This document shows, one piece after another, positions 9,622-29,279 of a DNA stretch of 32,874 nt. Position 1 is the stretch's first letter. Each line of letters opens with the position of its first letter. Made by a program: the position numbers and the translations under genes. The stretch is from Lachnospiraceae bacterium (GTDB lineage Bacteria > Bacillota > Clostridia > Lachnospirales > Lachnospiraceae). The stretch lies in assembly GCA_028693705.1 (NCBI GenBank), contig JAQUUX010000037.1, positions 1 through 32,874 of the forward strand. Direction: 5' to 3'. Under the pieces are notes generated by a model. It saw only the letters and a list, made by a program, of their open reading frames with translations, did not search any database and was not told where the DNA came from.

Positions 9622-11976
9622 CTACACCCTTGTCACGATCAGCTCGCAAGGTCCCTCAATTGTAATCGTTTTGCGTCCGCTTGGTACAAATACACTGTCC
9701 CCCGGCCAATAGGTAATGGAAGTCTGCTCTCCGGATACAATGCCCCTTCCGGTTACAAAGATCAAAGAGGCAAAAGATTCCTCTCCGATTTCCAGTTCCA
9801 TCCGATCTGCGATCCTAAACAGCCTGCTTTCAAAATATTTACAGCTGCTTAGAAGAAGTCCCTGCTGACTTTCCGCCTCAGTCCGTACCACATCTGCTTC
9901 CACAACATTCCGCGGGCTTTCCAGGTATTTCCCATACTGGAGCACATCCAGCGCTTTTTCTAAATGAAGTTCTCTTGTATTTCCAAACTTATCCTTACGA
10001 TTATAATCATATAACCTGTAAGTCACGTTGGAACTCTGCTGGATCTCACAGATCAAACAACCCTTACAAATGGCATGAACCGTGCCTGCCGGGATAAAAT
10101 ACACTTTTCCCTTTTCCACCGGGATCCAGTTTAAAATCTCCTGAATGGTATTATCCTGTACTTTTGCCTGCACTTCTTCCCTGGTCACATCTCTGTTAAA
10201 GCCGCAGTAGATACCGGCGCCCTCTTCACAGTCCACAATGTACCACATCTCGTTTTTGCCATATTCATTTTCTCTGGTAAGGGCATACTCGTCATCCGGA
10301 TGCACCTGTACAGATAAAGCCTGCTTGGCATCAATAAATTTTATCAAAATAGGGAAATTCGCCAGTGACTGACACTTCCAACCCCAATTCTTCTGACCGA
10401 TAGCCTCCAGATATGCACCAAAGGTAAGACCTCTGTGAGATCCGGTGGTTACAATACTCTGTCCGGCCGGATGAGCTGATAACTCCCAGCTCTCTGCAAT
10501 CTGGTCATATTCACAACGCTTGCCATATACCTCTCTGAGTTTGGTTCCACCCCAGAGGTAATCCTTAAAGGCCGGTTTCAAACGAACGAAGGGATCTATT
10601 TCCACACCCATATCTGCTTCTGTTACCGCAGAACCCAGCTGTGCTACAACAGCAGTCTCCCGTACATTGGCACCTGTTGCCACTTCGATTAAGATCAGCT
10701 GCTCCTTCCCCGGATTCAGTAGCTGATGTTCTTCTCCTGCGGCAGCCATGGCACTCTCGCCTACCATAAGTTCTGTCATCATCCCCTTAGAGAGAACTCT
10801 GACCCGTCCCTGAACGACCGTCCAATGTTCCGCTCTGCCTGCATGACTGTGGCTTAAAGTGCTGGCTCCCGGATGCATCACCAGTCTGTTCACACGGTAT
10901 CCGGCGGCTTCCGACAAAGTCTCATAATAACCCCAGCGTCTGTAATTCACCCTGCCCTGTCCAAAGAAGGACTGCAAAGCCGGATTTTCTTTTAAAATAT
11001 CTTTCATATCCTCAGAGACACCTTTTCTGCCAACATAAACAGCATCTCTGGTATTTACTACCACCGTATTCTCCAATCCGTTGGCTACTACCACACGATC
11101 CTCGCACTGGTTTAACACCATGGTATCCTTACAGCTTTTCACAATCTGCAGACCATTGGTGTCCAGCGTCAGACCTTCCTGCTCTAAGTCCTCCAAGCTG
11201 CCCACGTCCTGCCAAGTGAATTGTCCACGGATCACCTTGGCTGCATTGGTATACTCAAAAACAGCCTTTTCCACAGGCAGCGCCGCAATCTTCTCCAATT
11301 GCTCTTTTGAGAAGAAACAGCCATTGGAAAATAACTTCCTCTTCCCGTACACCTGCTCACAAGCCTTAAGTAAATCCGGTGCATACTTACGGACTTCATT
11401 TAAGAACACTCCGTTTTGAAATACGAACATGCCACTGTTTACCAGATACTCACTGCTCTCAGCATAGGCTTTTGCCTGGTTCATATCCGGTTTTTCCATA
11501 AATGCTACTACGTTTTCATTTTGATAACGGATATATCCGAACCGGGTATCCGGCTTCTCAATTGGCATACCAAAGGTAACCAGCTGACCATTTGAGGCAT
11601 ATTCCATTGCCGTCATCACGGCATCCTTATAGCCTTCTGAACCAATCAAGTGATCTGCCGCTACCACAAACAGCTTCTCTGACAACGGAAACTCCAGGCA
11701 GGATAACAGAATGGCCGCCGCCGTCTTTCTGCCTGTCTCTTCCAGGGCGAGGCGGTAGGTTGTCTCCTGAAAAGCCTGCATCTGGTTTTCCACAATATCC
11801 CTGTATTCTTTATTGGTAACGATGAGAAATTCATCGCAAAAAGGCATATTTCTCGCAACCGTTTCCTGGAACAAGGAATGATTTCCACGAAGCTGAATAA
11901 ACTGTTTTGGATAGTTTCCCCGGGACAAAGGCCATAAACGATCCCCTTTACCTCCGGATAGAATGATACATTTCAT
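9622..11976 (-). CDS. mannose-1-phosphate guanylyltransferase fused to type I mannose-6-phosphate isomerase
   Basis: A 784-residue fusion. Residues 1-340 form a ManC-type GDP-mannose pyrophosphorylase (GGxGxRLWPLSR at 8-19, NYPKQF 21-26, EKPD 161-164). Residues 345-435 form the short cupin usual at the C-terminus of ManC (RRWGYYETL, then SHSHAGRAEHW at 375-385). Residues 460-784 form a complete class I ManA isomerase with QVHPDD (557-562), E576 and H635 as likely zinc ligands. It could turn fructose-6-P into mannose-6-P and later make GDP-mannose. The mutase between these steps is not in the window. The start at 11976 is chosen because the conserved nucleotidyltransferase begins there and AGAGG lies before it. 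The upstream ATGs at 12009 and 11988 lack support. First gene of the leftward operon. Confidence 0.93.
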   Translation of the reverse strand: MKCIILSGGKGDRLWPLSRGNYPKQFIQLRGNHSLFQETVARNMPFCDEFLIVTNKEYRDIVENQMQAFQETTYRLALEETGRKTAAAILLSCLEFPLSEKLFVVAADHLIGSEGYKDAVMTAMEYASNGQLVTFGMPIEKPDTRFGYIRYQNENVVAFMEKPDMNQAKAYAESSEYLVNSGMFVFQNGVFLNEVRKYAPDLLKACEQVYGKRKLFSNGCFFSKEQLEKIAALPVEKAVFEYTNAAKVIRGQFTWQDVGSLEDLEQEGLTLDTNGLQIVKSCKDTMVLNQCEDRVVVANGLENTVVVNTRDAVYVGRKGVSEDMKDILKENPALQSFFGQGRVNYRRWGYYETLSEAAGYRVNRLVMHPGASTLSHSHAGRAEHWTVVQGRVRVLSKGMMTELMVGESAMAAAGEEHQLLNPGKEQLILIEVATGANVRETAVVAQLGSAVTEADMGVEIDPFVRLKPAFKDYLWGGTKLREVYGKRCEYDQIAESWELSAHPAGQSIVTTGSHRGLTFGAYLEAIGQKNWGWKCQSLANFPILIKFIDAKQALSVQVHPDDEYALTRENEYGKNEMWYIVDCEEGAGIYCGFNRDVTREEVQAKVQDNTIQEILNWIPVEKGKVYFIPAGTVHAICKGCLICEIQQSSNVTYRLYDYNRKDKFGNTRELHLEKALDVLQYGKYLESPRNVVEADVVRTEAESQQGLLLSSCKYFESRLFRIADRMELEIGEESFASLIFVTGRGIVSGEQTSITYWPGDSVFVPSGRKTITIEGPCELIVTRV

Positions 11977-12044
11977 AGTTCCTCTCATTCTGCCGCTGTT
12001 ACAGCACATAATTCTACTTTATATATAAATACATAAGAAAATAA

Positions 12045-14355: not shown

Positions 14356-15246
14356 TTATTTCTTTTGTAGTGTGTGAAATGGCATTTTTATCCATTCAGG
14401 CATTCCAAATTCTTCGGACCATAGTCCTTTTTCCTCGCACGGAATAATAACTTTCTTTCCTGGGTGTTCATTTAAGAAGGCTGCCCACCAGCTATATGAT
14501 GAATTAGATATAATCTGATTTTCAGCCAAAGTGATCAGTTGAAAATCATCCATATCTTTTCGTTCTGACTCATATTCAGGATATCTAATATCATATGGAA
14601 GTGCCATAAACTGTTCCTTTACCCATTCTAAATCTTCTGAAAAACAATAAAAAATCGGATTGTCTATTAATTCCGCCATCTTCGATATCGCATTTATAAA
14701 GTAATCCGGTGCAGGACAAACTCCTACTTTTACATAATCTCCACGTCGATAATGTATCGCTACTGTATTATGTGTTGCTCGCATCTCGTTTGCTACCCTT
14801 ATGGCTTCTTCCGATAACTCCGTATGGAATTTAAATTTCTGTCTGATTTCATTTTCGTATTCAATAAAGAAATCTGGTCGTTGCCAATTCCCTCGTAAAT
14901 ATATGTTCTTAGCTTTTTCCGAAGTACATTTTTGAATGATCTGATTAGGAGCCATTTCTCCCATTTCGTTTTCGCGTAATTCCTTCGTTGAAAATCCTAT
15001 CGCTTTATGATACCTAATTTTGTTAAGTAGTGCTCTGTCCGGTAACTTACGTTTTATTCTATAGGATACTCTTTTGTCATAAGTTATCTCCATATTTAAA
15101 ATCTCAGGATTTCTAAAAAACCATGCCTCATCCTGTATTGCTGTATCTATGGCAAAAGCATCGTTTCTTTTCTTCGCAATTACATACCCAAAAGCATAAG
15201 AAAATAATTGATTTCCAAATCCTCCACTTAAATGAACAATAACCAT
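14356..15246 (-). CDS. alpha-1,2-fucosyltransferase-type GT11 glycosyltransferase
   Basis: A 296-residue soluble protein. It opens with the GT11 signature GGFGNQLFSYAFG (8-20), holds HYRRGDY (165-171), the GDP-fucose-binding HxRRxDY motif, and later has SNSSYSWWAAFL (247-258), all typical of bacterial alpha-1,2-fucosyltransferases. The start at 15246 (ATG) is preceded by AAGGGAG at good spacing. A TTG 21 bases earlier is less likely. It is the second gene after a methyltransferase in a short leftward unit. GDP-mannose is made nearby, but the GDP-fucose enzymes (Gmd/Fcl) are not in the window, so the donor must come from elsewhere. Transfer of another GDP-sugar is possible. Confidence 0.9.
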   Translation of the reverse strand: MVIVHLSGGFGNQLFSYAFGYVIAKKRNDAFAIDTAIQDEAWFFRNPEILNMEITYDKRVSYRIKRKLPDRALLNKIRYHKAIGFSTKELRENEMGEMAPNQIIQKCTSEKAKNIYLRGNWQRPDFFIEYENEIRQKFKFHTELSEEAIRVANEMRATHNTVAIHYRRGDYVKVGVCPAPDYFINAISKMAELIDNPIFYCFSEDLEWVKEQFMALPYDIRYPEYESERKDMDDFQLITLAENQIISNSSYSWWAAFLNEHPGKKVIIPCEEKGLWSEEFGMPEWIKMPFHTLQKK

Positions 15247-15298
15247 TGCACTTTCTCCCTTGTCCAAACAAATTACTTTGAATATTATTATTCAACTT

Positions 15299-16172: not shown

Positions 16173-16201
16173 TTAACTTTTCGGCACAGATACGCTATAA
16201 T
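16173..16201 (+). promoter_or_regulatory. promoter for the nonulosonic-acid operon
   Basis: TTAACT (16173-16178), a 17-base spacer and a perfect TATAAT (16196-16201) lie 30 bases before the synthase start. An ideal AGGAGG follows at 16219-16225. It is divergent from the methyltransferase promoter, and the two -35 boxes are about 40 bases apart, so a single regulator could control both. Confidence 0.75.
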
Positions 16202-16231
16202 GGACGTAGTTTCATTACAGGAGGTAAAAGA

Positions 16232-17107
16232 ATGAACCAATATAAGAAGCCTTACATTATTGCCGAAGCCGGCTGTAACCATAAAGGCGAAATGGAAATT
16301 GCCAAAGAACTGATCAATGTTGCCGCAATGTTCTGTCATGCGGATGCCATAAAATTTCAAAAAAGATGCCCAAAGGAATTACTGACACCGGAGCAGTATA
16401 ATGCTCCACATCCTAATCCGCAGAATTCCTATGGTGCTACTTATGGTGCTCATCGTGAATTTCTGGAATTCACTGTAGATCAACACGCACAATTAAAAGA
16501 ATGGTGTGAAGAGGCCGGTATTACCTATGCTACATCCGTATGGGATATGACTTCTGCTAAAGAGATTGCTTCTCTGAAACCTAAGTTTATTAAAATTCCC
16601 TCTGCATGCAACACTTATTTCGAGATGCTTCAGTGGTTATGTGATAACTATCAGGGCGAAATCCAGTTATCCTTTGGTATGACTACACAGGCCGAGGAAG
16701 AAGAAATTGTAGAATTGTTTGAAAAAAACGGACGTGCCAAAGATCTTGTACTCTTCAACTGTACTTCCGGCTATCCGGTACCTTTTAAGGATGTATGTTT
16801 ATTAGAGATTAACAGAATGCAGAAATTATATGCTGACCGTGTAAAAGAAATCGGTTTTTCCGGCCACCACCTCGGCATAGCTGTTGATGTTGCTGCATAT
16901 ACTCTTGGTGCCAATATCATCGAACGTCATTACACACTGGATCGTACCTGGAAAGGCACAGATCATGCTGCTTCCCTGGAACCGGACGGTATTAGAAAAC
17001 TGGTTCGCAACTTAAATGCTGTACATGATTCCCTGACCTATAAGGCCGAAGAGATCCTGCCAATCGAAGCAGAACAGCGTCAGAAATTAAAATATAGAGA
17101 ACATTGA
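16232..17107 (+). CDS. NeuB/NANS-type nonulosonic acid (9-phosphate) synthase lacking a SAF domain
   Basis: A 291-residue TIM-barrel synthase that condenses PEP with a mannose-type sugar. Visible family motifs are EAGCNHKG (12-19), KFQ (41-43), CTSGYP (177-182), FSGHHLGI (209-216) and ERHYTLDRTWKGTDHAASLEP in two blocks (231-251). The SGH in place of the SDHT usual in bacterial NeuB, and the TWKGTDH block, resemble animal NANS, which uses 6-phosphorylated ManNAc or mannose. The protein ends after the barrel, so the C-terminal SAF (antifreeze-like) domain of typical NeuB (about 340 residues) is absent. An ideal AGGAGG sets the start at 16232. The next gene encodes the activating enzyme plus phosphatase. 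The product could be KDN-9-P or Neu5Ac-9-P, and KDN is favoured by inference. Confidence 0.88.
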   Translation: MNQYKKPYIIAEAGCNHKGEMEIAKELINVAAMFCHADAIKFQKRCPKELLTPEQYNAPHPNPQNSYGATYGAHREFLEFTVDQHAQLKEWCEEAGITYATSVWDMTSAKEIASLKPKFIKIPSACNTYFEMLQWLCDNYQGEIQLSFGMTTQAEEEEIVELFEKNGRAKDLVLFNCTSGYPVPFKDVCLLEINRMQKLYADRVKEIGFSGHHLGIAVDVAAYTLGANIIERHYTLDRTWKGTDHAASLEPDGIRKLVRNLNAVHDSLTYKAEEILPIEAEQRQKLKYREH

Positions 17108-17119
17108 TTGGAAAATAAA

Positions 17120-18289
17120 ATGAATATAGCATTTATTCCCGTAAGGGGTGGAAGTAAATCCATCCCTTTAAAAAACATTAAAGAAATCTGTGGAAAGCCT
17201 TTGGTCTACTGGACCGTAGCTGCTGCAAATGCCTGTGAAAATATTGATAAAGTAATTGTCTCTACAGATAGTCCTATTATCGAGTCTACTGTAGTTTCCT
17301 TTGGGTTTCCCAAAGTTGAGATCCATCATCGCAGTGCAGAATCTGCAACTGATACAGCTTCCACTGAATTTGCCATGCTGGAATATGCCAGACAGGCAGA
17401 ATTTGATAACATGGTTTTGGTACAGGCTACCTCGCCACTGCTTTCAAGTGAGGATCTGAGCCATGGATTTGAAGTTTTTAATCAACCCGATTGTGACAGC
17501 GTTTTATCTGTTGTAAAACAAAAACGGTTTTACTGGGATATTGCAGAAGATACCGGTAACGCAATCCCAGTCAATTATGACCCTTTTCATCGACCACGCA
17601 GACAGGAATTTGAAGGATTCCTAACGGAAAATGGTGCCTTCTATATTACTTCCCGTGATGATCTGCTATCTTCCGGTAATAGAATTTCTGGTAATATTCG
17701 CTCTGTCGAGATGGATGAAGCAACTGCTTACGAAATCGATGAACCAAGTGACTGGATCATTATCGAGAAATTAATGCAAAAGAGAATACAGACAGAGGCT
17801 GCTTCACAGCTTCCCGATTTTTCTCATATCAAAATGTTTCTGACCGACTCTGACGGTTGTCTGACTGATGGTGGTATGTACTACACAGAAAATGGAGATG
17901 AGATCAAAAAGTTCAATACCCAGGATGGTAAGGGACTCGCCTTATTAAAAGAAGCTAATATCATCACCGGAATTGTTACCGGCGAATCACGTGAACTGGT
18001 TTCCAGACGTGCCCAAAAGCTTGGTGTAGATATTCTTGAAATGGGTGCAAATGATAAGCTTCCTATTATCCGAAAGCTCTGTGAACAATATGATATTTCA
18101 TTAGAAGATGTGTGTTATATTGGTGATGACCTTGGTGATCTGGACGTTATAAAAGCTGTAGGAATCGGATGCAGCGTACCCAATGGAATTGATATTGTAA
18201 AGAAAAGTGCTAAATACATCACAAAGAAATCCGGTGGTAATGGCGCAATCAGAGAAGTGGCTGATTTGATCTTAGCTACCAAAGTATAA
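17120..18289 (+). CDS. CMP-nonulosonate synthetase fused to KdsC-like HAD 9-phosphatase
   Basis: A 389-residue two-domain protein. Residues 1-225 form a NeuA/CMAS-type cytidylyltransferase (VRGGSKSIPLKN at 8-19, RPRRQ at 158-162, ENGAFYI at 170-176). Residues 237-389 form a KdsC-like HAD phosphatase with an intact DSDG nucleophile motif (243-246), TGES (287-290), K313 and GDDLGD (335-340). The same domain order occurs in animal CMP-sialate synthetases, where (from memory) the DxDG nucleophile is lost. Here it is present, so this chain could both remove the 9-phosphate and make the CMP-sugar. The gene starts 12 bases after the synthase stop if ATG 17120 is used. A TTG at 17108 adjoining that stop is the alternative. 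The terminator at 18294 closes the operon. Confidence 0.9.
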   Translation: MNIAFIPVRGGSKSIPLKNIKEICGKPLVYWTVAAANACENIDKVIVSTDSPIIESTVVSFGFPKVEIHHRSAESATDTASTEFAMLEYARQAEFDNMVLVQATSPLLSSEDLSHGFEVFNQPDCDSVLSVVKQKRFYWDIAEDTGNAIPVNYDPFHRPRRQEFEGFLTENGAFYITSRDDLLSSGNRISGNIRSVEMDEATAYEIDEPSDWIIIEKLMQKRIQTEAASQLPDFSHIKMFLTDSDGCLTDGGMYYTENGDEIKKFNTQDGKGLALLKEANIITGIVTGESRELVSRRAQKLGVDILEMGANDKLPIIRKLCEQYDISLEDVCYIGDDLGDLDVIKAVGIGCSVPNGIDIVKKSAKYITKKSGGNGAIREVADLILATKV

Positions 18290-18293
18290 ATAT

Positions 18294-18318
18294 AGGGTAT
18301 AGTCATTGACTATACCCT
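18294..18318. terminator. bidirectional terminator between convergent operons
   Basis: A perfect 11-bp stem (AGGGTATAGTC/GACTATACCCT) with a 3-base loop. It begins 4 bases after the stop of the nonulosonate synthetase and overlaps the stop codon (18310) of the capsule transferase on the other strand. The tails are only moderately T-rich (CTTCTTT on plus, ATATTTATA on minus). Confidence 0.75.
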
Positions 18319-19914
18319 CTTCTTTCCACCTTCATAATATGCAAGTTCTTTTATCTTATCCTCTCTTAATTTTGTCTCAAATAAATCCAGTGATCTTGTA
18401 TTACAGTTGCTATAAGCTGTTTTATCCCCATGATTCTGTCGCATTTCATCCTGCATCTGCTGATAATCTGTATAAACAGCCTCATCAAATTCATCCAAAA
18501 ATCCATCAGATAATTTTCCATAGGTATAAACCACTTTTCGTGCCATGATCTTCTGTTCTTCTGTCAGAGGCGATAACTCCCCTGCCTTGCTTAACAGGTC
18601 AAAATACGCCTCTTTTGTAGTTGGATGGTAAGTAAATCCAAATCCATTGTAGAAGGCATCTCCCAGGGCTATAACAGGGATTCCGAAGCATGTATATTCC
18701 ATTCCTGCTGTACCACATACAGTGACTAGCACATCAGCTACATTCAATATGCTCTCCGTGCTAAACTCATCCGGGAATACATAGATATTAGGCGATTGAT
18801 TACGTTCTATCATCATCTCCACAGAATCTTTAGAATCTGCATAAGATTTTCTGGCGGGATGCGGTTTAATCAACCAGTTCACTTCGTCATGATTCTTGGC
18901 AAATTCCAGTGTTTTTTCTGTCCAGTCATAATTATCCCTGAAACAATTATCCCCGCTCTGAAAAGTCGCATCTGAGAAAACATGAGTCATGATAATTACA
19001 TTTTTCTTATTTGGATCCAGACCCGTCTTTTCTGCAAGTTCTTCTCTGGTACATACATTTTTATTCAGATATGCCACCCTGTCAATTACAGGTCCTAATT
19101 TACCATGGAACCGATCCTGCAGGAACTGCTCTACCCAGGGCTGATAATCCTCTGTTTCCGCCCGTTTAATATGTTCTTCCACATAACGATGCAAATAATG
19201 GTGTTTATATGAAGAACACTCAGTCCCATTATAAGAGATCATCCTGTCTCTCTTCATTCCTGCCTGTACTACTTTTGCACCAGAATTCTGCATAATAGAG
19301 AGAATAATGCCCTCATTATAAGGGAAATCATCGGATAGACACAGTTCCGGCTTTCCTTTTTGGCAGATCAATTCTATTTCTTCTGTAAACAGCATCAGTG
19401 AAAACAGTTTCTTCATGCAAACCTTGTCCCTGACAGTTCGAATAGTTGACAGCTCTGAAGTTCGTATAATGTCTTCATAGAGATGTAGTCCAACCGGTAT
19501 TCCATGGATCTTCATCTTCTTCAGTTCTTCTCCGCTTAGATTTCCACAATAGTATCCCATAATTTTACCCAGACACTTCATAATAGAAACCGGATGCCTC
19601 ATCATCTTCTTCCGAATGGATATATAACCGATACCAAAAGAGTCATATAATGCCCGAAGCTTTTCATTATCATTCCAATCCAGTACAACCGGCTTGGCAC
19701 CCGTTGTCTGCTCCAAGCCCTTAGCATAGATCAGCTTTGGCAGCATAAGATCAATCTCTTTGTGGATCATCATAAAATTAATATAGATGAATTTATCGCT
19801 TTTCTTAGTAACAGCATTTTTATCCCAGTATTTTCGATTCAGTTCTATAAACTGATCTAATTTGGCTTCATCTATATAAAATGGTTCATAGAATTTCTGT
19901 TGCAATTTATTCAT
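18310..19914 (-). CDS. capsule-type GT-B glycosyltransferase (KpsS/KpsC-like), candidate nonulosonate transferase
   Basis: A 534-residue soluble protein. Its C-terminal half carries KPHP (350-353), GTAGMEYTCFG (401-411) and a GFGFTYHP stretch (424-431), the pattern of Capsule_synth/KpsS-KpsC proteins that use CMP-Kdo. It is the last gene of the rightmost leftward operon and converges on the CMP-nonulosonate operon. AGGTG precedes the ATG, 3 bases after the upstream stop. Because the CMP-activated sugar made next door needs a transferase and no GT29/42/52/80-type sialyltransferase is visible, this is the best candidate to add it. That assignment is inference, and a nucleotide-sugar transferase of another specificity is possible. 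Confidence 0.72.
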   Translation of the reverse strand: MNKLQQKFYEPFYIDEAKLDQFIELNRKYWDKNAVTKKSDKFIYINFMMIHKEIDLMLPKLIYAKGLEQTTGAKPVVLDWNDNEKLRALYDSFGIGYISIRKKMMRHPVSIMKCLGKIMGYYCGNLSGEELKKMKIHGIPVGLHLYEDIIRTSELSTIRTVRDKVCMKKLFSLMLFTEEIELICQKGKPELCLSDDFPYNEGIILSIMQNSGAKVVQAGMKRDRMISYNGTECSSYKHHYLHRYVEEHIKRAETEDYQPWVEQFLQDRFHGKLGPVIDRVAYLNKNVCTREELAEKTGLDPNKKNVIIMTHVFSDATFQSGDNCFRDNYDWTEKTLEFAKNHDEVNWLIKPHPARKSYADSKDSVEMMIERNQSPNIYVFPDEFSTESILNVADVLVTVCGTAGMEYTCFGIPVIALGDAFYNGFGFTYHPTTKEAYFDLLSKAGELSPLTEEQKIMARKVVYTYGKLSDGFLDEFDEAVYTDYQQMQDEMRQNHGDKTAYSNCNTRSLDLFETKLREDKIKELAYYEGGKKRV

Positions 19915-19917
19915 TAT

Positions 19918-21093
19918 TCACCTGATCTTTCCCAGACTTTCTTCATAAATCTGATATATCTGATCCGTATTAGCCCGGAGTGAAAATTTATCTTCTGCGA
20001 TTTGATACGCCGTCTGTCCCATTTGTCCGATTATGGATGGCTGTGCTATAAATGTTTTCATACAATCAGCCAATCCCTGAGGATCTCCTGCTGTATACAG
20101 CTTTCCATTTTTACCATCATTAATGAGTTCCTTCGTTCCTCCGCTATCTGCACCGATAACCGGCAAGGTAGCAAACATATACTCTACCGTAACCCGGCCA
20201 AACGCCTCTTTTTCTGAAGCAACAATTCCCACATCCATTTGCTGCAACATGTCCGGAACATCTTCCCTATAGCCATGGAATATCACAAAGTCATTTAAGT
20301 TATGTTCGGTGACATAATCTTTCAACATCGTTTCATATGAAGTCGCACCATTACCAATCAAATGAACCTGATATCCTTTTATTCCCTGTCTTTGTAAAAT
20401 TTCACACGCATTTAAAATCGTAAACTGCCCTTTTAATTCGGATAAGACACCGGCACAAACGAAATGCACTTTTTTTTCGTTATTATTATCGCCGTTCTCT
20501 ATTTCCTTTATCTCACGTATCGGAAAAGGATTATCGATTCCATTATAAACAACGTTTATGTTATTACCGTTGCTCAACATGTTATGGTATTTATCTGCAA
20601 TAGCCTGTGATATGGCAATAACCCGATATGCTTTGGAAAATAAACAGTTTCTTACAGACGTTGGATAAATGATCTCAACCTGATAATCTTCTTCACCAAA
20701 TTCCCTGACATGCCAGATATGTGGGACTTTCAATTTATCAGCCAGCCATGCTCCTACCTGAATCGTGCTGCTGTTAGAATGAACCATATCTATCTTCTCA
20801 TCCTTTAGCAATTGATACAAATTCCGATATACTCCATGATTTCTCACAGCCTTATAAACAGCTCGGATACCTCTTTGACCTCTGCCCACTGCCTCAATCC
20901 ATCGATAAAACACATGAATATAACAAGGAATACCATTGCACTTCAAAATCTCCGCAAAATCCCCATCCCTTTCAATGGGTAAGAGTACCACTGGCTCCAC
21001 ATGATACCGTGTTCTTAAATCCAGTATTAAATTCAGCAAAGATTTGTTCGCACCATACATACATCTGCAATGGGCTATGAATAATACCTTCAA
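19918..21093 (-). CDS. family 4 glycosyltransferase
   Basis: A 391-residue GT-B retaining glycosyltransferase. The C-terminal domain holds the EX7E motif (EAFGRVTVE, E296-E304) and a following GGT (318-320), as in GT4 enzymes that use nucleotide sugars. The start codon is TTG at 21093, supported by GAGGG 7 bases upstream. No ATG fits the conserved N-terminus (MKVLFIAHC). It lies 25 bases after the preceding GT2 gene and 3 before the capsule transferase. Donor and acceptor cannot be read from the sequence. It would add a sugar to the lipid-linked repeat on the cytoplasmic side. Confidence 0.88.
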   Translation of the reverse strand: MKVLFIAHCRCMYGANKSLLNLILDLRTRYHVEPVVLLPIERDGDFAEILKCNGIPCYIHVFYRWIEAVGRGQRGIRAVYKAVRNHGVYRNLYQLLKDEKIDMVHSNSSTIQVGAWLADKLKVPHIWHVREFGEEDYQVEIIYPTSVRNCLFSKAYRVIAISQAIADKYHNMLSNGNNINVVYNGIDNPFPIREIKEIENGDNNNEKKVHFVCAGVLSELKGQFTILNACEILQRQGIKGYQVHLIGNGATSYETMLKDYVTEHNLNDFVIFHGYREDVPDMLQQMDVGIVASEKEAFGRVTVEYMFATLPVIGADSGGTKELINDGKNGKLYTAGDPQGLADCMKTFIAQPSIIGQMGQTAYQIAEDKFSLRANTDQIYQIYEESLGKIR

Positions 21094-21954: not shown

Positions 21955-23067
21955 CTAAATATCGCACAATAGACAAAATTGACCCCAGTCCCTTGTACGT
22001 AAAGCTTTTTCAACTCTTTTGTGAAAAACATTTCTTGATTTCCACATTAAGAACTCGTTCGCCAATAAATCACAAGATAAAGAAAATACTGCCTTTCTAA
22101 CATCCTTATCCATCAGCACAATTCGCTTACTGTTTAATACTAACTGATGTAATACCTGCTCATACAAATCCTGAGTCATAAGTATTCTCAGCTCTTTCAT
22201 TTCGGACATAATGCCCTCTGTGATCCACCAAGTGTCCAAACATTTAGCATTCTTTTTACCTCTTTCGGACATTCCTGTATTATTCTGTCTGTAACCATAA
22301 ACAATATCAGATATCATGACAACTTTTTGTGCTATAGGTAAAATCAAATATGGTAACATAGTATCTTCAAACCATACTCCTACAGGAAAACAAACCTTTT
22401 CAAACAGTTCTACTTTGAACACTTTTCCCCAGGGGTAACCATTCAATGTACGAAATGGATTTGCATGTTCCTCCGCTTTAACCATATATATTTTTTTTGA
22501 ACTTTTCTTAAATGTATAATAACTTCCCTCTACAATTTCTGCATCATTTATAAAAGCTGAATCTAAAAGATGTTGCACTGCATTTTTCTCTAATTTATCA
22601 TCTGCATCCACAAACATCAAATATTTGCAATCCAGGTACTGCAAAGCCAAATTTCTTGCAGCTGAAGTTCCTCCATTCTTTTGAAAAATTACTTTCAAAC
22701 CACTTTTTTCTTTATATTTTTTCAGAAGCTTTGCTGTATCGTCAGTAGATCCGTCTTCAACAACCCACGTTTCCACTTTATAACTTGTTTGCTGTGAAAG
22801 TATAGAGTCTAGACATTCTTCTATGTAATTCTCCACATTATACGCTGGCACAATGATACGTAAGTCTATAACAGCTGGGATTTCTCTTTCATTGTGACAA
22901 ACACATTTAACGACAGGTTTTGTACAATATTTCTGTAATAATACCTCTGCCTCTTCTGAATCCATCTGGTATTTTTCGTGTCGAAACGGTAGCATACACA
23001 TTTTTCGAATTGCTCCAAATATATGAACTCCACCCAATATACTTTTCTTTAAGAGACCGTCTTTCAT
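21955..23067 (-). CDS. family 2 glycosyltransferase with N-terminal extension
   Basis: A 370-residue GT-A transferase. About 68 residues of basic and Cys-containing sequence precede the usual IIVPAYNVENYIEECL start of the GT2 domain. EDGSTDDT (104-111) and DADD (154-157) mark the nucleotide and metal sites. The C-terminal 100 residues are helical, as in CpsI/EpsJ-like enzymes. The ATG overlaps the stop of the membrane protein upstream by 4 bases (ATGA), indicating coupled translation. The N-terminal extension has no recognised motif. The donor sugar is unknown. Confidence 0.87.
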   Translation of the reverse strand: MKDGLLKKSILGGVHIFGAIRKMCMLPFRHEKYQMDSEEAEVLLQKYCTKPVVKCVCHNEREIPAVIDLRIIVPAYNVENYIEECLDSILSQQTSYKVETWVVEDGSTDDTAKLLKKYKEKSGLKVIFQKNGGTSAARNLALQYLDCKYLMFVDADDKLEKNAVQHLLDSAFINDAEIVEGSYYTFKKSSKKIYMVKAEEHANPFRTLNGYPWGKVFKVELFEKVCFPVGVWFEDTMLPYLILPIAQKVVMISDIVYGYRQNNTGMSERGKKNAKCLDTWWITEGIMSEMKELRILMTQDLYEQVLHQLVLNSKRIVLMDKDVRKAVFSLSCDLLANEFLMWKSRNVFHKRVEKALRTRDWGQFCLLCDI

Positions 23068-24419
23068 TTTAGCTTCTCCATCAACTTTTTCTGTTTTATA
23101 AATGATATCAGCATCAGGAAAAATGCCAGATAAAATAATGGCATATTATAAATCATATATCTGGTCTGGCAGAAGATAACCAGAGAAGTCAGAACCACAT
23201 TTCCTAAAATTGCTATCATCACCAGTAGTGCAAATTTTGCACTCTTATCTATTCTATTCTGCTTGAATAAATATCCCATTAGACACAGATACAGCAGATA
23301 TGCAATCAGAGAATACAGATTCAGAATCGAATTCTGCACTGCAATCGTAAGGATCATGCCATGTACAAAGGATGCCATATAAATCTTAAACATCTTTGGA
23401 ATATTGTGTATCAAAACTTCGCGTAAAATCGCAGAGCGAACAGCATCTGCCTGCATACTGATCTCTGCCTCATCTGTTATACCCTGTTCCCTTAAGAAAT
23501 CTACGATCATAGGCTGTGAGGTATTAATGGCTATGGAATCATAGCTTTCAGAATAATGATCCTCCAATGCCAGCAAACCGCCCTCTGCGAAATCATAATT
23601 CCAGCCATTTGCATAAGTCTCCGTCAAAATCTCAGAGAACAAGTCCTGATATTCTTTCTCCGTAATATATTCCTTTTCATCCACTGTAGACGTATACAGC
23701 ATAATGGAGAAAATCGTATTAGAAGAATCAGTATGCCCCATGAATTCCCCACGCAGTGAATAGTTATAACCTCTTTCAAACAGTATAATACAAAGGTAAG
23801 TCAGGCATATGACTGCAACAGGGAATATCGCATGACGGATACTGTGCTTTGGAATCCAATAAGTAAACCACAGCACCAGTAATAGTAATGGCAATACCAC
23901 CAGCATCTGCTTTCTCGTACTGATCATCACAAAACACGTGATCGCCGCAAACCAGATATACTTCTGTTCTCTTCGATAAATAATCTCTAATAAAAAAGCA
24001 AATAGCAGCAACCATAAGGCAATGGTAATACTCTCTGTCATAATAGAACAGGAGTAGGTACTGGCTCGCTTAGCGACAAACCGGTTTAACAAAACCGGTG
24101 CAAACTGTATCACGATTATCAGACCCAACTGCCATTTTTTTAAAGAAAAATGTCTGTCGAGAACCTCTGTTAGTTTCCAACTAGTCACTGCATTTAATAT
24201 GCTTTGCAGAAAAGCAGCTACTGTCAGATAAACCTCTGTTCCGCAGATAGCCCTCAATGCTGCCAAAAATAGCGGATAGATCGGCTCCCTGGAAGCATCC
24301 ATATTAATATAACTGGCACTGTCTGCGCAAATCACTGCTCCATCCATAACAAAAAAGACAAGATAGAATACGATAAAAATACCCAGAACAGATAAGCTTT
24401 TAAGTCTCTTTTCGCGCAT
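23064..24419 (-). CDS. GT-C-like polytopic membrane protein
   Basis: A 451-residue protein with about ten membrane helices. After the first helix comes ADSASYI (32-38) and then REPIYPLF (44-51). An acidic residue followed by a Pro-rich loop is characteristic of GT-C enzymes (GT39/PMT or Wzy-like) that use polyprenyl-phosphate sugars outside the membrane. A soluble extracytoplasmic segment lies in the middle third (about 230-330). It starts 1 base after the ABC transporter stop, with AGAGG upstream. It could transfer Und-P-sugars made by the GtrB-like enzymes of the same operon, or act as the repeat-unit polymerase. Both are inference. Confidence 0.7.
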   Translation of the reverse strand: MREKRLKSLSVLGIFIVFYLVFFVMDGAVICADSASYINMDASREPIYPLFLAALRAICGTEVYLTVAAFLQSILNAVTSWKLTEVLDRHFSLKKWQLGLIIVIQFAPVLLNRFVAKRASTYSCSIMTESITIALWLLLFAFLLEIIYRREQKYIWFAAITCFVMISTRKQMLVVLPLLLLVLWFTYWIPKHSIRHAIFPVAVICLTYLCIILFERGYNYSLRGEFMGHTDSSNTIFSIMLYTSTVDEKEYITEKEYQDLFSEILTETYANGWNYDFAEGGLLALEDHYSESYDSIAINTSQPMIVDFLREQGITDEAEISMQADAVRSAILREVLIHNIPKMFKIYMASFVHGMILTIAVQNSILNLYSLIAYLLYLCLMGYLFKQNRIDKSAKFALLVMIAILGNVVLTSLVIFCQTRYMIYNMPLFYLAFFLMLISFIKQKKLMEKLK

Positions 24420-24420
24420 C

Positions 24421-26154
24421 TTAACCTCTAATTCGTTCTACTTTTCCAGCTTCAATTTTATAAACCACATCACAATTCTCAATAGTAGAGAGCCTGTGTG
24501 CGATCATTACCATGGTCTTAGTACCATGCAGTCCATCAATTGACTTCATTAACTCTTTCTCTGTTTCATTATCTAAAGCAGATGTTGCTTCATCAAAGAT
24601 CAAGATATCCGGATTACGGTACAATGCTCTGGCAATACCGATTCTCTGCCTCTGACCACCGGAAATTCTAACACCACGTTCTCCTACTTCTGTATCCAGA
24701 CCTTTTTCCAATCCACGGATAAACTCTTCCAATTGCGCATCCCGAAGTACTTTCCACACCTGTTCATCACTGATCTTCTCCGGTGCAATACCAAATGCCA
24801 CATTATTTCGAATGGTATCATCTGTCAGATAAATATTCTGTGGAATATATCCGATATTCTGTCTCCATCCGGATAAGTTTTCCCTTATATCCTTGCCGTC
24901 CACCAGAATCTGTCCGGTTTTCGGCTCCAAAAGACCTAAGAGAATATCTGCCATAGTGGTCTTGCCGCCGCCGGAAGGTCCCACCAATGCCACTGACTGT
25001 CCATTCACAATATACATTTCTGCATGTTCCAATACGTTTTTATTGGTATTCTCATAAGCAAACGTGATATTGTTTACACAAATGTCTCTCACAAAGGACA
25101 TTTTTTCAATCTGTTCAATATCAAAATTTTCAGCCTTAGTCAACTGCTCCGCAGAACGCACATCATTGTACACCAGGTCAATAGATGCCTTATGATAAAC
25201 TATCGTATTGGTGTATGCATAAATTGAATTTACAGATGGCAACAACTTATATGCCGTTACACAAAATACAGCTAACTGCGGTAATAAAGTTATATAGGTT
25301 GGATTCCAAAGAATATTAACTGCCAAATACGTCAGAATACCGGAAATGCATACTGCTTCAATCAGGTATTTTGGAATTAAATTGACCAGCTTAGACTTTC
25401 TTACCACATCCGTCTGTTTATAATAAGCCACATCATATTGATCAATGAAATATTTTTCATTATTCAAAATTTTTATTTCTTTGATGCCATCAAAGGCCTG
25501 CTGCAGATGCCTAATCAAGAAACTGGACATCGTTTGATTTACTTTACCATAATAACGTGTTCTTTTTTGTACGATCAACAATATGGCGGCTCCACAAACA
25601 GCTAATAATCCTGCTACCACTATTGTCATAATAATGTTAGTTACAGCAAGATATCCAACCAGACATAATGCCGTAAAACCATTTGATAAAATCAGCAAAC
25701 AATTGGTAATAACCTCATACAACTGCGCTGTATCTGCATTTACACCTCTAATCAGCTCGGATGTGTTTCTGTATAAGAAAAAGGAATATGGCTGTTCCAG
25801 ATAAGCACGCATCAGTTTCGTTGCCAAACCTCTTTTTACATCTGCTGCAAAATAATACATTTTACCATACATCCAGGATAAATATACACTTTTAGTAATA
25901 TAAATGATAACAGTTGCCATAATCAGTAATAACAAAATATGTTCCTTCGTTTGTAGACCACTGATATTTCTGAGCAGAACAAATGCATCGCTATTCATCG
26001 CTTCATCATTCATCGCCAGATTTATAATTGGTAGCAGAATAGAAACTCCCAACAGTTCCGCTACCGATCCGATAATAATCAGAATCAGTAACCAGACTGT
26101 CTGCAGTTTTGCTTTTCGATCCAACAGATACATTAATTCTCTAATCGTATTCAT
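24421..26154 (-). CDS. PglK/MsbA-type ABC transporter, probable lipid-linked oligosaccharide flippase
   Basis: A 577-residue half-transporter. The N-terminal membrane domain (about residues 1-320, six helices) is followed by an ATPase with Walker A GPSGGGKTT (392-400), a Q-loop near 439, signature ISGGQRQR (497-504) and Walker B ILIFDEATSALD (517-528). Such fused ABC proteins inside glycosyltransferase operons commonly flip lipid-linked oligosaccharides (PglK). No Wzx-type flippase is present here, which supports that role. Its ATG overlaps the stop of the fucosyltransferase-like gene (ATGA). Export of a peptide or other lipid cannot be excluded. Confidence 0.9.
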   Translation of the reverse strand: MNTIRELMYLLDRKAKLQTVWLLILIIIGSVAELLGVSILLPIINLAMNDEAMNSDAFVLLRNISGLQTKEHILLLLIMATVIIYITKSVYLSWMYGKMYYFAADVKRGLATKLMRAYLEQPYSFFLYRNTSELIRGVNADTAQLYEVITNCLLILSNGFTALCLVGYLAVTNIIMTIVVAGLLAVCGAAILLIVQKRTRYYGKVNQTMSSFLIRHLQQAFDGIKEIKILNNEKYFIDQYDVAYYKQTDVVRKSKLVNLIPKYLIEAVCISGILTYLAVNILWNPTYITLLPQLAVFCVTAYKLLPSVNSIYAYTNTIVYHKASIDLVYNDVRSAEQLTKAENFDIEQIEKMSFVRDICVNNITFAYENTNKNVLEHAEMYIVNGQSVALVGPSGGGKTTMADILLGLLEPKTGQILVDGKDIRENLSGWRQNIGYIPQNIYLTDDTIRNNVAFGIAPEKISDEQVWKVLRDAQLEEFIRGLEKGLDTEVGERGVRISGGQRQRIGIARALYRNPDILIFDEATSALDNETEKELMKSIDGLHGTKTMVMIAHRLSTIENCDVVYKIEAGKVERIRG

Positions 26155-27176
26155 AATAACCCTTTCAACTGTTCCATACCTGATTCAGGAATTGTCCCTT
26201 CATCCGATGCCAGAACCCAATGCCTTTCCTTTGGATACTCATGCCAGAAATTTTCCGGACATATTTTAATCCCCTCAGACAGTAATGCCGGCTTATAAGA
26301 AAATGAACTTTTACTGGTAACCAGAATATCTGCATTTACCATATGAAGAAAAGAATCTCTTGCAGACATATCCAGACAGAATCTCAGATTTGGAAAATCC
26401 TGTAATTCTGCAAAATCTTCTTCCTTTCCCTGTGAAAAAACATAAATTACATATTTTTGTTCTTTCTGTATAAGCGGAAGTAATTGTTCCAAAACCCTAT
26501 GATAATAGGAGACTTCAAGCCAACGTCTCTGCATGGATGTCGCTGCACCTGTTCCATCTCCATTTGCAATATCGCCCCTTCGGATATGAAGTGCAATGGT
26601 GAGCTCATCCGGATTGAATATCAGGTGATCCTGTTTTCTGGCAGGCGCCTGTCTGAAACGTTCACAGATTTGCGGGATTACGCCGCACTGTGCCCAATAG
26701 ATCTGATCTCTCTCCAGATAGAAAACAACTTTTCTCCCTGAATAGGAATCGATGATTTGCTGGATCATCCTCATATCCTCTTCCTTCTTTTCAGAAAAAT
26801 ACGGAAGGGTTCTTTTCACGTAACCCTCCCCCTTCAATAATTCTTTTGCTGTTATCTCTCCCACACCAAATCCCAGAAAATCATCCCATTGCGCTGAAGC
26901 AAAGGGAATATAGGCATGATGAACCTGAAATATGTCTGCAAACCATAAACCTGCATTCCAGTTTGCCATCTGGTGCCCGATTCCGGCACCTTTATTAGGT
27001 CTGGCGGTAAGATACAGATGACTTCTGTCCGGCACTGTACCGGACCTCTTCCATCTCTTGCCACGACGGTATGCCGGATACAGATACAGTGCCCATTTGC
27101 CCGGACGAAGTTTCTGCCAGAATATACAATGAAGTTTTCTCTGTACTTTATCAATCAGGATTTCCTGTTTTGTCAT
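26151..27176 (-). CDS. fucosyltransferase-superfamily protein
   Basis: A 341-residue protein. NKGAGIGHQMANWNAG (61-76) and HIRRGDI (197-203) follow the layout of the GT11/GT23/GT65-like fucosyltransferase superfamily, in which the HxRRxD block binds GDP-fucose. The C-terminal SKSSFSYKPAL segment is in the position of the conserved Ser-rich block. It is distinct from the GT11 enzyme at 14356 and only distantly similar. The N-terminal 50 residues are basic. AAGGAAG precedes the ATG, and its end overlaps the ABC flippase by 4 bases. Fucosyl transfer is likely, and another GDP-sugar is possible. Confidence 0.75.
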   Translation of the reverse strand: MTKQEILIDKVQRKLHCIFWQKLRPGKWALYLYPAYRRGKRWKRSGTVPDRSHLYLTARPNKGAGIGHQMANWNAGLWFADIFQVHHAYIPFASAQWDDFLGFGVGEITAKELLKGEGYVKRTLPYFSEKKEEDMRMIQQIIDSYSGRKVVFYLERDQIYWAQCGVIPQICERFRQAPARKQDHLIFNPDELTIALHIRRGDIANGDGTGAATSMQRRWLEVSYYHRVLEQLLPLIQKEQKYVIYVFSQGKEEDFAELQDFPNLRFCLDMSARDSFLHMVNADILVTSKSSFSYKPALLSEGIKICPENFWHEYPKERHWVLASDEGTIPESGMEQLKGLL

Positions 27177-27186
27177 TAATACTTCC

Positions 27187-28338
27187 TTATTTATGTTTGA
27201 TATTTAAAATGCCAATAAAGAAACTGGAAAATACAAGCTGTACTCCAATTTCAATTAAAGATAAAGCCGGTATCACCAGACGCATAGTCTGCTCCGGTAC
27301 CAGAGACAGAAATGAATTCTCCCCCCACTGTACCAATGCCACTATTGTTGCTGCGATACCAAGTAAAATCAATATCACACCCCAGAAGATACCTTTATCC
27401 ACACTGAATTTTGCCAGTTTATCGATGGATTTATTCCTCGGAATAAACTGGGTATTAAAGGCATATACCTTGGTGTAGACACCAAATAAAATGATATTAA
27501 CACCGATCATCATAAAAGCACATGCATATAAAATCGTGTGTATGCCGAGAGACAGTCCCGGGAATGTAAGATTTCCAAATTCCAGCACAACTGTCAAGAT
27601 CAGTCCCAGTACGAACAAAATCATACCCGGATACCAGAACAGCCAGTCAGGACTATACATTAATAAAAATTTCAAATGTCTCCAGCCATCTGACATGGTT
27701 CTCAAATGTGGTGGCTTCGTCCTGCCATCCTTCTTTAAAGTCGTAGGTACCTCTGCTATTTTCAAATCGGCCAGAGTAGAACGCACCACCATCTCACTGG
27801 CGTATTCCATACCTGTGGTCTGTAAATCCAATGCCATGATACTCTCTCTGTTATAGCCTCTTAAGCCACAATGGAAATCACCAATTGCACTGGGATAAAA
27901 GAGACGTCCGATGAAACTCAGCACAGGATTTCCAATATAACGGTGTGAAAAAGGCATTGCACCTTTTTCTATACCGCCCTTGAAGCGGTTTCCCATGACC
28001 AGGTCATATCCCTCTCTCAGCTTTTCTACAAAGGGAAGCAAATGAATGAAATCATAACTGTCATCTGCATCTCCCATGATCACATACTTACCTTTGGCTG
28101 CCTTACAGCCTCCGATCAATGCTGCACCATAACCTCTTACAGGTACAGGCTCTACCCTTGCCCCACATCTCAAGGCAATTTCTCTGGAACCATCCGTACT
28201 GCCATTGTCAGCAATCAGGATCTCACCGCTTACCTTTTCTTTATCCAAAAAAGACTGGGCTTTTTTTATACAGGTTTCCAATGTTTCTGCCTCATTTAAG
28301 CAAGGCATTAAAATGGTTAATTCTATTTCATTAGACAT
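27187..28338 (-). CDS. DPM1/GtrB-like family 2 glycosyltransferase with C-terminal membrane domain
   Basis: A 383-residue protein. The GT2 domain (about 1-230) has ADNGSTDGS (43-51) and GDADDSY (89-95), and four membrane helices follow. This is the polyprenyl-phosphate hexosyltransferase layout: it would charge Und-P with a sugar from a nucleotide donor for later use outside the cell. The ATG at 28338 shares one base with the TGA of the radical SAM gene (TGATG). A GTG directly before it is the alternative. GAAGGG in the upstream gene is the ribosome site. It is one of two such enzymes in this operon, so two different Und-P-sugars may be made. Confidence 0.88.
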   Translation of the reverse strand: MSNEIELTILMPCLNEAETLETCIKKAQSFLDKEKVSGEILIADNGSTDGSREIALRCGARVEPVPVRGYGAALIGGCKAAKGKYVIMGDADDSYDFIHLLPFVEKLREGYDLVMGNRFKGGIEKGAMPFSHRYIGNPVLSFIGRLFYPSAIGDFHCGLRGYNRESIMALDLQTTGMEYASEMVVRSTLADLKIAEVPTTLKKDGRTKPPHLRTMSDGWRHLKFLLMYSPDWLFWYPGMILFVLGLILTVVLEFGNLTFPGLSLGIHTILYACAFMMIGVNIILFGVYTKVYAFNTQFIPRNKSIDKLAKFSVDKGIFWGVILILLGIAATIVALVQWGENSFLSLVPEQTMRLVIPALSLIEIGVQLVFSSFFIGILNIKHK

Positions 28339-29279
28339 CACGGATTTCCCTTCATCATGTTTAATCGAATACCGGAATCAATAAAATCACACTTTGCACA
28401 AATCGGAATACTGCTTCGATCCTTGGCCATTTTCTTTCTGATATCCTGTAACTCTTTGCAATTAAAGATTTCTAACAGTGACTTCTCATTGCAGTTACCA
28501 AAATCCTGTGTTTCCAGCACGTCGCTGCAGCACAGTCCCACCTGTCCATTCGGATAGATCGTTAAATCAGTGTAAGGAATCAAACATGGTTCCTTGATAC
28601 CCTTAACAGCTTCCTTTTTGTTTGGTGAATTACCAGCCCTGCTGGTGAGAACTTCCTGCTGATAACGCTTCTGAATCACAATTTTAACTTTTTCAAATTT
28701 GGATTCATTCTGCTTTACATACTCATAAATCTTAGCAATATTATCATTCAATTTATATTCCAGTGAATAGTTGTTAATATACATAACATCCACATTCTCT
28801 GCGATCACATCCATGATCTCCGGTGTTAACAACGAACCATTGGAAAACACCAGCATCTGTGCGTGCGGAAGTTTCTCCCTGGATTTTTTCAGCATCTCCT
28901 TCATCCGCACATCAATAAACGGTTCATTATTTACATACAGACTGAAAACGCCTTTCCAGTCGCCCCAGGAGGCAACCTCGTCCAGGATCTTATCAAACAG
29001 CTCATCTGTCATCTTAGCAAAAGGACGAGTCTCACTATGAATATTGGCAGGACAAAAAGCACATTCCCCATTACAGCGATTGATCGTTTCAATTGCTATA
29101 TACAAGGGATAAATCTGTCCTTTTTCTTCTTTTACCAGCATACGGTCAATATATTTTGCGCTTTCATTTTTTCGTAAGATGGACTGGCTGAGTAAATAAG
29201 CAGAACTGCTTAACTTGGGCAGTCTCTTACGCAGTGTAAATCCGAGTGGTCCCATAAAGGAACTGATTTTAATTGGCAT
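28338..29279 (-). CDS. radical SAM/SPASM-domain protein
   Basis: A 313-residue iron-sulfur enzyme. The radical SAM cluster motif is C69-x3-C73-x2-C76 (CNGECAFC). After the partial barrel a SPASM-like C-terminal region has several cysteines (GLCCSD, GNCNEK, FNCKEL, ICAKCDF) that should bind one or two auxiliary clusters. The family includes peptide-modifying maturases and sugar or alcohol dehydrogenases. No precursor peptide is seen next to it, so modification of a sugar or lipid-linked intermediate is possible but unproven. It starts with AGAGG 6 bases upstream and is coupled to the GtrB-like gene by a one-base overlap. Confidence 0.85.
   Translation of the reverse strand: MPIKISSFMGPLGFTLRKRLPKLSSSAYLLSQSILRKNESAKYIDRMLVKEEKGQIYPLYIAIETINRCNGECAFCPANIHSETRPFAKMTDELFDKILDEVASWGDWKGVFSLYVNNEPFIDVRMKEMLKKSREKLPHAQMLVFSNGSLLTPEIMDVIAENVDVMYINNYSLEYKLNDNIAKIYEYVKQNESKFEKVKIVIQKRYQQEVLTSRAGNSPNKKEAVKGIKEPCLIPYTDLTIYPNGQVGLCCSDVLETQDFGNCNEKSLLEIFNCKELQDIRKKMAKDRSSIPICAKCDFIDSGIRLNMMKGNP

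Follow-up and report, generated by a model that had tools for sequence, protein, structure and literature searches.

A predicted GT-B enzyme beside a NeuB/NeuA-HAD pair in a Lachnospiraceae bacterium as a candidate CMP-nonulosonate transferase

Which enzyme attaches the sugar that a nonulosonate gene pair provides? The question is raised by a 32,874-nucleotide stretch of a Lachnospiraceae genome (contig JAQUUX010000037.1 of assembly GCA_028693705.1; below, the window). Here, genes for a NeuB-type synthase and a NeuA-type cytidylyltransferase fused to a haloacid dehalogenase (HAD) phosphatase are met tail to tail by the gene of a glycosyltransferase-like protein, our candidate. In line with the original prediction, Pfam and NCBIfam scans of most of the larger open reading frames (ORFs) of the window found no recognised sialyltransferase family (some ORFs, e.g., 23064-24419, were unscanned). 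We propose, with a probability of about 0.62, that the candidate is a cytidine monophosphate (CMP)-nonulosonate transferase for a surface glycan. The genes concerned are:

18310-19914, minus strand: candidate CMP-nonulosonate transferase, GT-B, Capsule_synth-like (ATG start, intact ORF, 534 amino acids)
16229-17107, plus strand: NeuB-family nonulosonate(-9-phosphate) synthase, short form (Pfam NeuB, 3e-67)
17108-18289, plus strand: NeuA-type cytidylyltransferase fused to a HAD phosphatase (Pfam and NCBIfam)

Profile comparisons point to the capsule transferases KpsC and KpsS. In a Pfam scan of the candidate, residues 295-434 only matched Capsule_synth (PF05159; 46.6 bits against a curated cut-off of 20, 4e-12), and there was no match to polyST (PF07388) or GT52 (PF07922). 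A profile search of PDB sequences with the candidate family ranked KpsC first (E 0.0026). KpsC is the β-transferase of 3-deoxy-D-manno-oct-2-ulosonic acid (Kdo) of the E. coli group 2 capsule and belongs to glycosyltransferase family GT107; its Asp160 is a demonstrated nucleophile (PMC10148158). Alignment to KpsC of E. coli CFT073 with hhalign (E 1.5e-6) placed the HVFSD motif of the candidate on QTFND (KpsC residues 156-160), with Asp315 on Asp160, and also aligned the HP motif and the Gly/Ser-rich loop that follows it. E. coli KpsS, which has QVYND and KHHP, matched in its C-terminal part, over 108 profile columns that include KHHP and the STAG loop, and its N-terminal half gave no reported alignment. 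NCBIfam gave distant matches only, one of them to the BFO_1060 glycosyltransferase, a name that may or may not refer to the Tannerella transferase for pseudaminic acid (Pse) or legionaminic acid (Leg); a literature search on BFO_1060 and its neighbours found nothing.

The fold is consistent with this placement. An AlphaFold model of the candidate, built from 45 homologs, had a pLDDT of 91 and a pTM of 0.89. Foldseek returned mixed GT-B proteins, with TagF at rank 3 and KpsC at ranks 11-13, and VIA re-alignment of the model put five KpsC entries first (Z 11.9-12.7 over 260-273 residues, rmsd 4.7-5.1). WbbB and KrkA were absent among the VIA matches listed, which is no evidence against kinship. 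G-protein-coupled receptor entries among these matches covered only residues of the C-terminal domain; most likely, the proteins behind them were fused to a glycogen-synthase domain as constructs, and they were rejected as relatives. At the profile level, and with supporting fold evidence, the candidate is thus a GT-B member of the clan of KpsC/KpsS-type CMP-ulosonate transferases. Within this clan, which holds KpsC, KpsS, WbbB, KrkA and KpsS1, it probably represents a separate family.

The positions expected to bind CMP and to carry out catalysis are strongly conserved. Among the 45 homologs, which come from several phyla, G142, N346, W347, H352 and P353 (candidate numbering) were invariant. 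Position 147 was always Glu or Asp, position 315 Asp (43 homologs) or Glu (2), and position 350 Lys or Arg; the (K/R)xHP motif was thereby kept in 45/45, and E406 in 42/45. The ORF and its two motifs are as originally described, with KPHP at residues 350-353 and GTAGME at 401-406, a pair that turned up at the same spacing in 2 of 20,000 shuffled versions of the sequence. The retaining β-Kdo transferases of GT107 and GT99 are described as having an invariant QxxxD, in which Gln binds the donor carboxylate and the terminal Asp is the nucleophile, and a CMP-binding (K/R)xHP. The candidate has the nucleophile position and (K/R)xHP; however, HVFSD lacks the Gln, and its counterpart at position 311 is His in 39 of the homologs, Ser in 3 and Gln in 1. 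Because this residue is usually His, we did not file the candidate in GT99 or GT107. The earlier label KpsS/KpsC-like therefore holds for the clan and is over-specific beyond it, since the His and the long extra helical regions set the candidate apart from a KpsS or KpsC ortholog.

Comparison with characterised enzymes suggests a function for these residues. In KrkA, the HP motif and an SS...E loop bind CMP and the glutamate of a YE motif is the general base; the corresponding glutamate of KpsS1, the GT118 Pse transferase of Acinetobacter baumannii, is likely the base as well (PMC12887879). The candidate has YE at 146-147. By description, the N-terminal GT140 module of KrkA has its general base, nucleophile, HP motif and Ser-Ser...Glu loop in the same order as the candidate and at roughly similar distances (PMC12887879): the HP histidine follows the nucleophile by 37 residues in the candidate and by 34 in KrkA, and the phosphate loop comes another 49 and 44 residues later, with KrkA in the numbering of that paper. 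The proposed catalytic and CMP-site residues are E147, H311/D315 (HxxxD), K350/H352-P353, G401-T402 and E406, with Glu147 as putative general base on the grounds of motif and order. KpsS1, likewise compared by description, belongs to the clan and uses a nonulosonate donor; its identity with KpsS of E. coli is 30% (PMC12887879), whereas the candidate matches KpsS only at the profile level. KrkA (QTLND) and WbbB (GT99) have QxxxD and use CMP-Kdo, where the candidate has His. KpsC, the top-ranked solved fold for our model, differs in the same residue and in that the candidate is a single 534-residue module with longer helical parts, whose relatives are linked to nonulosonate rather than Kdo synthesis. 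As a separate observation, the clade of L074, L077, L078, L082 and L083, which includes Pse-linked members, has (K/R)DHP instead of the KPHP of the window; possibly, this difference marks donor specificity.

Across phyla, the wider homolog family is linked to nonulosonate genes well above control. We scored linkage as NeuB/NeuA within about 10 kb of a homolog. Of 397 genomes in the same-family sample, 11 had a candidate match, and eleven loci besides the window were extended; NeuB and NeuA both lay within this distance in 7 of the 11. A single-sequence scan of wider genome contigs gave no relatives and an alignment-based scan 48. When 391 genomes of the class were searched with a profile at E 1e-15, the window was the sole match. 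Among 24 more distant loci, from Moraniibacteriota, Synergistota, Shewanella, Psychromonas, Bacteroidota, Pelagibacter, Rhodospirillales, Myxococcota and others, NeuB or NeuA was near the homolog in 18 (L074 and L083, counted here, also belong to the same-family sample). For comparison, a control GT4 glycosyltransferase from the operon of the candidate was linked in 0 of 15 loci (Fisher, 2e-6 for the distant and 5e-4 for the same-family loci); this control was drawn from one family only and is therefore imperfectly matched. A GT11 gene counted in the same genomes was near NeuB in 3 of 15 cases, all in clusters that hold the candidate family, and is not an independent control. The partner genes also differ by clade. 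PseI exceeded its cut-off in all four loci of the clade L077, L078, L082 and L083, and NeuB/NnaB did so beside L073, L075 and L079; members from Shewanella, Psychromonas and Bacteroidota show this link. These clade-wise links fit CMP-nonulosonates as the donor class. Together with clan membership, the linkage makes the originally suggested CMP-nonulosonate transfer plausible.

The donor is probably CMP-linked 2-keto-3-deoxynononic acid (KDN) or a KDN-like sugar. The best NCBIfam match of the HAD half of NeuA-HAD is KDN-9-phosphate phosphatase (162.7 bits, under the cut-off of 180). Window-type NeuB occurs in 12 of the 397 family genomes, usually with a fused NeuA-HAD, and in several of these loci a protein with CBS and a mannose-6-phosphate-isomerase-type cupin lies between or beside the two. 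In one (L137:1280-3214, minus strand, genome G363), CBS/cupin, cytidylyltransferase and HAD phosphatase are fused in a 644-residue protein next to NeuB and a Maf-type protein. The window itself holds a mannose-6-phosphate enzyme:

9622-12009, minus strand: mannose-1-phosphate guanylyltransferase / mannose-6-phosphate isomerase-type protein (family scan)

Mannose 6-phosphate is therefore a plausible substrate of the window NeuB, and KDN, as proposed earlier, a plausible local sugar; the 9622-12009 protein is a possible source of the mannose 6-phosphate. In the mechanism that we envisage, NeuB and NeuA-HAD would make CMP-KDN or a KDN-like donor, from which the cytoplasmic candidate would move the nonulosonate onto a surface glycan, and the neighbouring ATP-binding cassette (ABC) transporter would perhaps export the glycan afterwards. 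Asp315 would be the covalent nucleophile and Glu147 the general base, His311 would replace the carboxylate-binding Gln, and the reaction would be of the retaining type.

Several observations weigh against CMP-nonulosonate transfer. The Gln of QxxxD is not conserved in the candidate family. Generic GT-B folds come near KpsC in Z, with a larger rmsd when full length, and because they score close behind, the fold evidence alone is only suggestive of KpsC kinship. KDN has an equatorial C5 group. Retaining Kdo-like enzymes, according to the authors of the KrkA study, may not readily use equatorial-C5 ulosonates (PMC12887879). Ten of the 12 family genomes with window-type NeuB gave no match to the candidate, and ten such NeuB loci outside the transferase-bearing genomes hold no candidate homolog. 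Other proteins occupy the neighbourhood of the pair in some of them, namely a polysialyltransferase-family protein in L129 and a Maf-type protein in L134, L137 and, by homology, L138. Since the pair stands elsewhere beside other transferase types and without the candidate, it seems to be a portable cassette that works with one transferase or another. Finally, only 2 of 23 loci of close Lachnospiraceae relatives (33-39% identity) are linked within 10 kb (L054 and L069). Linkage is thus common among the distant and same-family loci and rare among the closest relatives, and a strict linkage of the family to NeuB/NeuA was rejected.

The unlinked state of the close relatives nevertheless looks derived, because on the tree the window protein falls outside their mostly unlinked clade, between it and the NeuB/NeuA-linked L067, in which NeuB directly follows the transferase in the same direction. 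In each of the 20 close-relative genomes searched, NeuB and cytidylyltransferase genes are present at other places, and the NeuB is often a short one that adjoins a recA-like gene. We did not rely on such genome-level co-occurrence, found in all searched carriers: NeuB is widespread in the family (a strong match in about 40%, counted by hand) and the carriers are related. The genomes of L047, L065 and L069 hold a NeuB 71-75% identical to that of the window, and their transferases form one small clade (support 91/72). In L069, the transferase gene is followed on its own strand by HAD, by NeuA and by a NeuB of the window type, with 75% identity. Separately, L099, L101, L112 and L115 share a recurrent cassette of short NeuB, a NeuA of ~268 residues, a GFO/IDH-like oxidoreductase and an SDR-like protein.

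The mostly unlinked close relatives also bear on the alternative that survives best, namely that the candidate uses another cytidine-activated donor, such as cytidine diphosphate (CDP)-glycerol, CDP-ribitol or another CDP-sugar, and that NeuB/NeuA is incidental. The Pfam scan of the candidate gave a match to CDP-glycerol glycerophosphotransferase (PF04464; 20.7 bits, below the curated cut-off of 22.1), and the Foldseek rank of TagF agrees with this. However, Capsule_synth scored far higher, and KpsC heads the VIA list. The annotated genes of the window showed no synthase for CDP-glycerol or CDP-ribitol, and the nonulosonate linkage of the wider family is strong. We regard a CDP donor as unlikely.

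Another possibility is that the candidate transfers CMP-Pse made elsewhere in the genome, while the NeuB/NeuA-HAD pair of the window feeds another enzyme. Host contig C81 (C81:26000-41853, L156) carries a second nonulosonate locus with PseF, PseI and PseG over their cut-offs, and a related clade is Pse-linked. Yet this locus has its own ABC transporter and polysialyltransferase-family protein, the latter barely past the cut-off; the (K/R)DHP of the Pse-linked clade differs from the KPHP of the window; and the candidate adjoins a non-Pse pair. One candidate transferase hence lies near each nonulosonate pathway of the host (with no genome-wide search for Maf or further transferase families), and CMP-Pse transfer by the candidate appears quite unlikely.

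A third alternative, to which we would give no better odds, is that the candidate is a surface-glycan glycosyltransferase near a nonulosonate pathway that does not itself transfer nonulosonates. SpsB of Bacillus subtilis, a TagB/HP-motif protein encoded beside the CMP-Leg genes, is the precedent and adds to the points against our proposal: its deletion did not lower spore Leg (PMC7439481). SpsB is likened to the candidate by setting, by its Gram-positive host and by description, and by this analogy the result directly cautions against reading function from a neighbourhood of this kind. The pair of the window, moreover, is portable and found without the candidate. The same study notes that B. 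subtilis lacks all four classical families of bacterial sialyltransferases, and it does not identify the Leg transferase (PMC7439481). Conversely, deletion of GtfS and TFUB4_00887 of Tannerella forsythia shows that they add Pse or Leg (PMC6388019, PMC6120980, PMC7439481); these GT-B proteins of 445 and 442 residues, with a TagB-type domain, HP motifs and adjacent nonulosonate genes, are likened to the candidate by description. Against a bystander role of the candidate stand the full conservation of its catalytic and CMP-site positions and the clade-wise ties to different nonulosonate synthases. Lastly, a genuine CMP-Kdo transferase like KpsS/KpsC, as the KpsC alignments and the Capsule_synth family might suggest, is very improbable, because the Gln of QxxxD is His, the relatives lie by NeuB/PseI-type synthases, and the three host cytidylyltransferase (CTP_transf_3) matches, PseF on C81, the window NeuA and a marginal one, include no evident KdsB.

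The local setting of the proposed CMP-nonulosonate transferase was further described by the following features:

18294-18318, no strand: terminator-like palindrome with an 11-bp perfect stem, between the convergent stops of the candidate and NeuA-HAD
19918-21093, minus strand: GT4 glycosyltransferase directly upstream of the candidate (Pfam GT4, 5e-28)
24421-26154, minus strand: PglK/MsbA-type ABC transporter on the strand and in the gene run of the candidate (Pfam and NCBIfam)
26151-27176: HIRRGD-bearing glycosyltransferase-like protein, in many relatives a conserved neighbour of the ABC transporter
28338-29279: radical SAM/SPASM-like protein encoded within the glycosyltransferase operon (NCBIfam)
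14356-15267, minus strand: GT11 (fucosyltransferase-type) gene, beyond the NeuB/NeuA pair as seen from the candidate (Pfam)

The candidate does converge directly on the nonulosonate operon, as predicted, with stops ~20 bp apart. The genes lie on opposite strands, and their stops converge at a shared palindrome, which may be a two-way terminator common to both units; the candidate and the pair are not transcribed together. The candidate begins 3 nt past the stop of the GT4 gene and is therefore part of a minus-strand polysaccharide operon; a related gene precedes the candidate homolog in some relatives (L035/L065 and L047). On the plus strand, NeuB and NeuA-HAD make up a unit of their own, preceded closely by a promoter-like site (16173-16201, consensus matches only). 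The NeuB ORF can be extended to 15998; homologs begin at ~16229, the likely start, and most of those in relatives have 286-306 residues. Pfam detected no SAF domain in the window NeuB. The ABC transporter family is present in 17 of 24 close loci, and a GT11 gene is also near the candidate homolog in L067 and L069. The 26151-27176 protein had no Pfam match; its HIRRGD motif gives it a fucosyltransferase-like look, and we discarded it as a candidate for nonulosonate transfer.

Pse, Leg and KDN are products of many bacteria, but only a few of the attaching enzymes have been identified. We tentatively suggest, with rather less confidence than for the candidate itself, that the homologs in Bacillota, Pseudomonadota including Pelagibacter, Bacteroidota, Moraniibacteriota and others are a new family of CMP-nonulosonate transferases. 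Such a family would have an HxxxD/E active site of the Kdo-transferase type, with clades that diverged to donors of Pse, of Leg or neuraminic acid (Neu), and of KDN, including equatorial-C5 ulosonates. An observation in its own right, and a surprise for streamlined marine genomes, is that single-cell genomes of Pelagibacter carry homologs (L080, L084, L086, L089 and L093), some by NeuB/NeuA.

The catalytic fold is known mainly from Gram-negative capsule enzymes, and the candidate comes from a Gram-positive Lachnospiraceae bacterium. The family bears on the published argument over which ulosonates a Kdo-type active site can use (PMC12887879). Its signature, HxxxD...(K/R)xHP...G(T/N)xxxE, combined with the clade-wise donor association, would offer testable candidates for nonulosonate attachment in Gram-positive and Gram-negative genomes.
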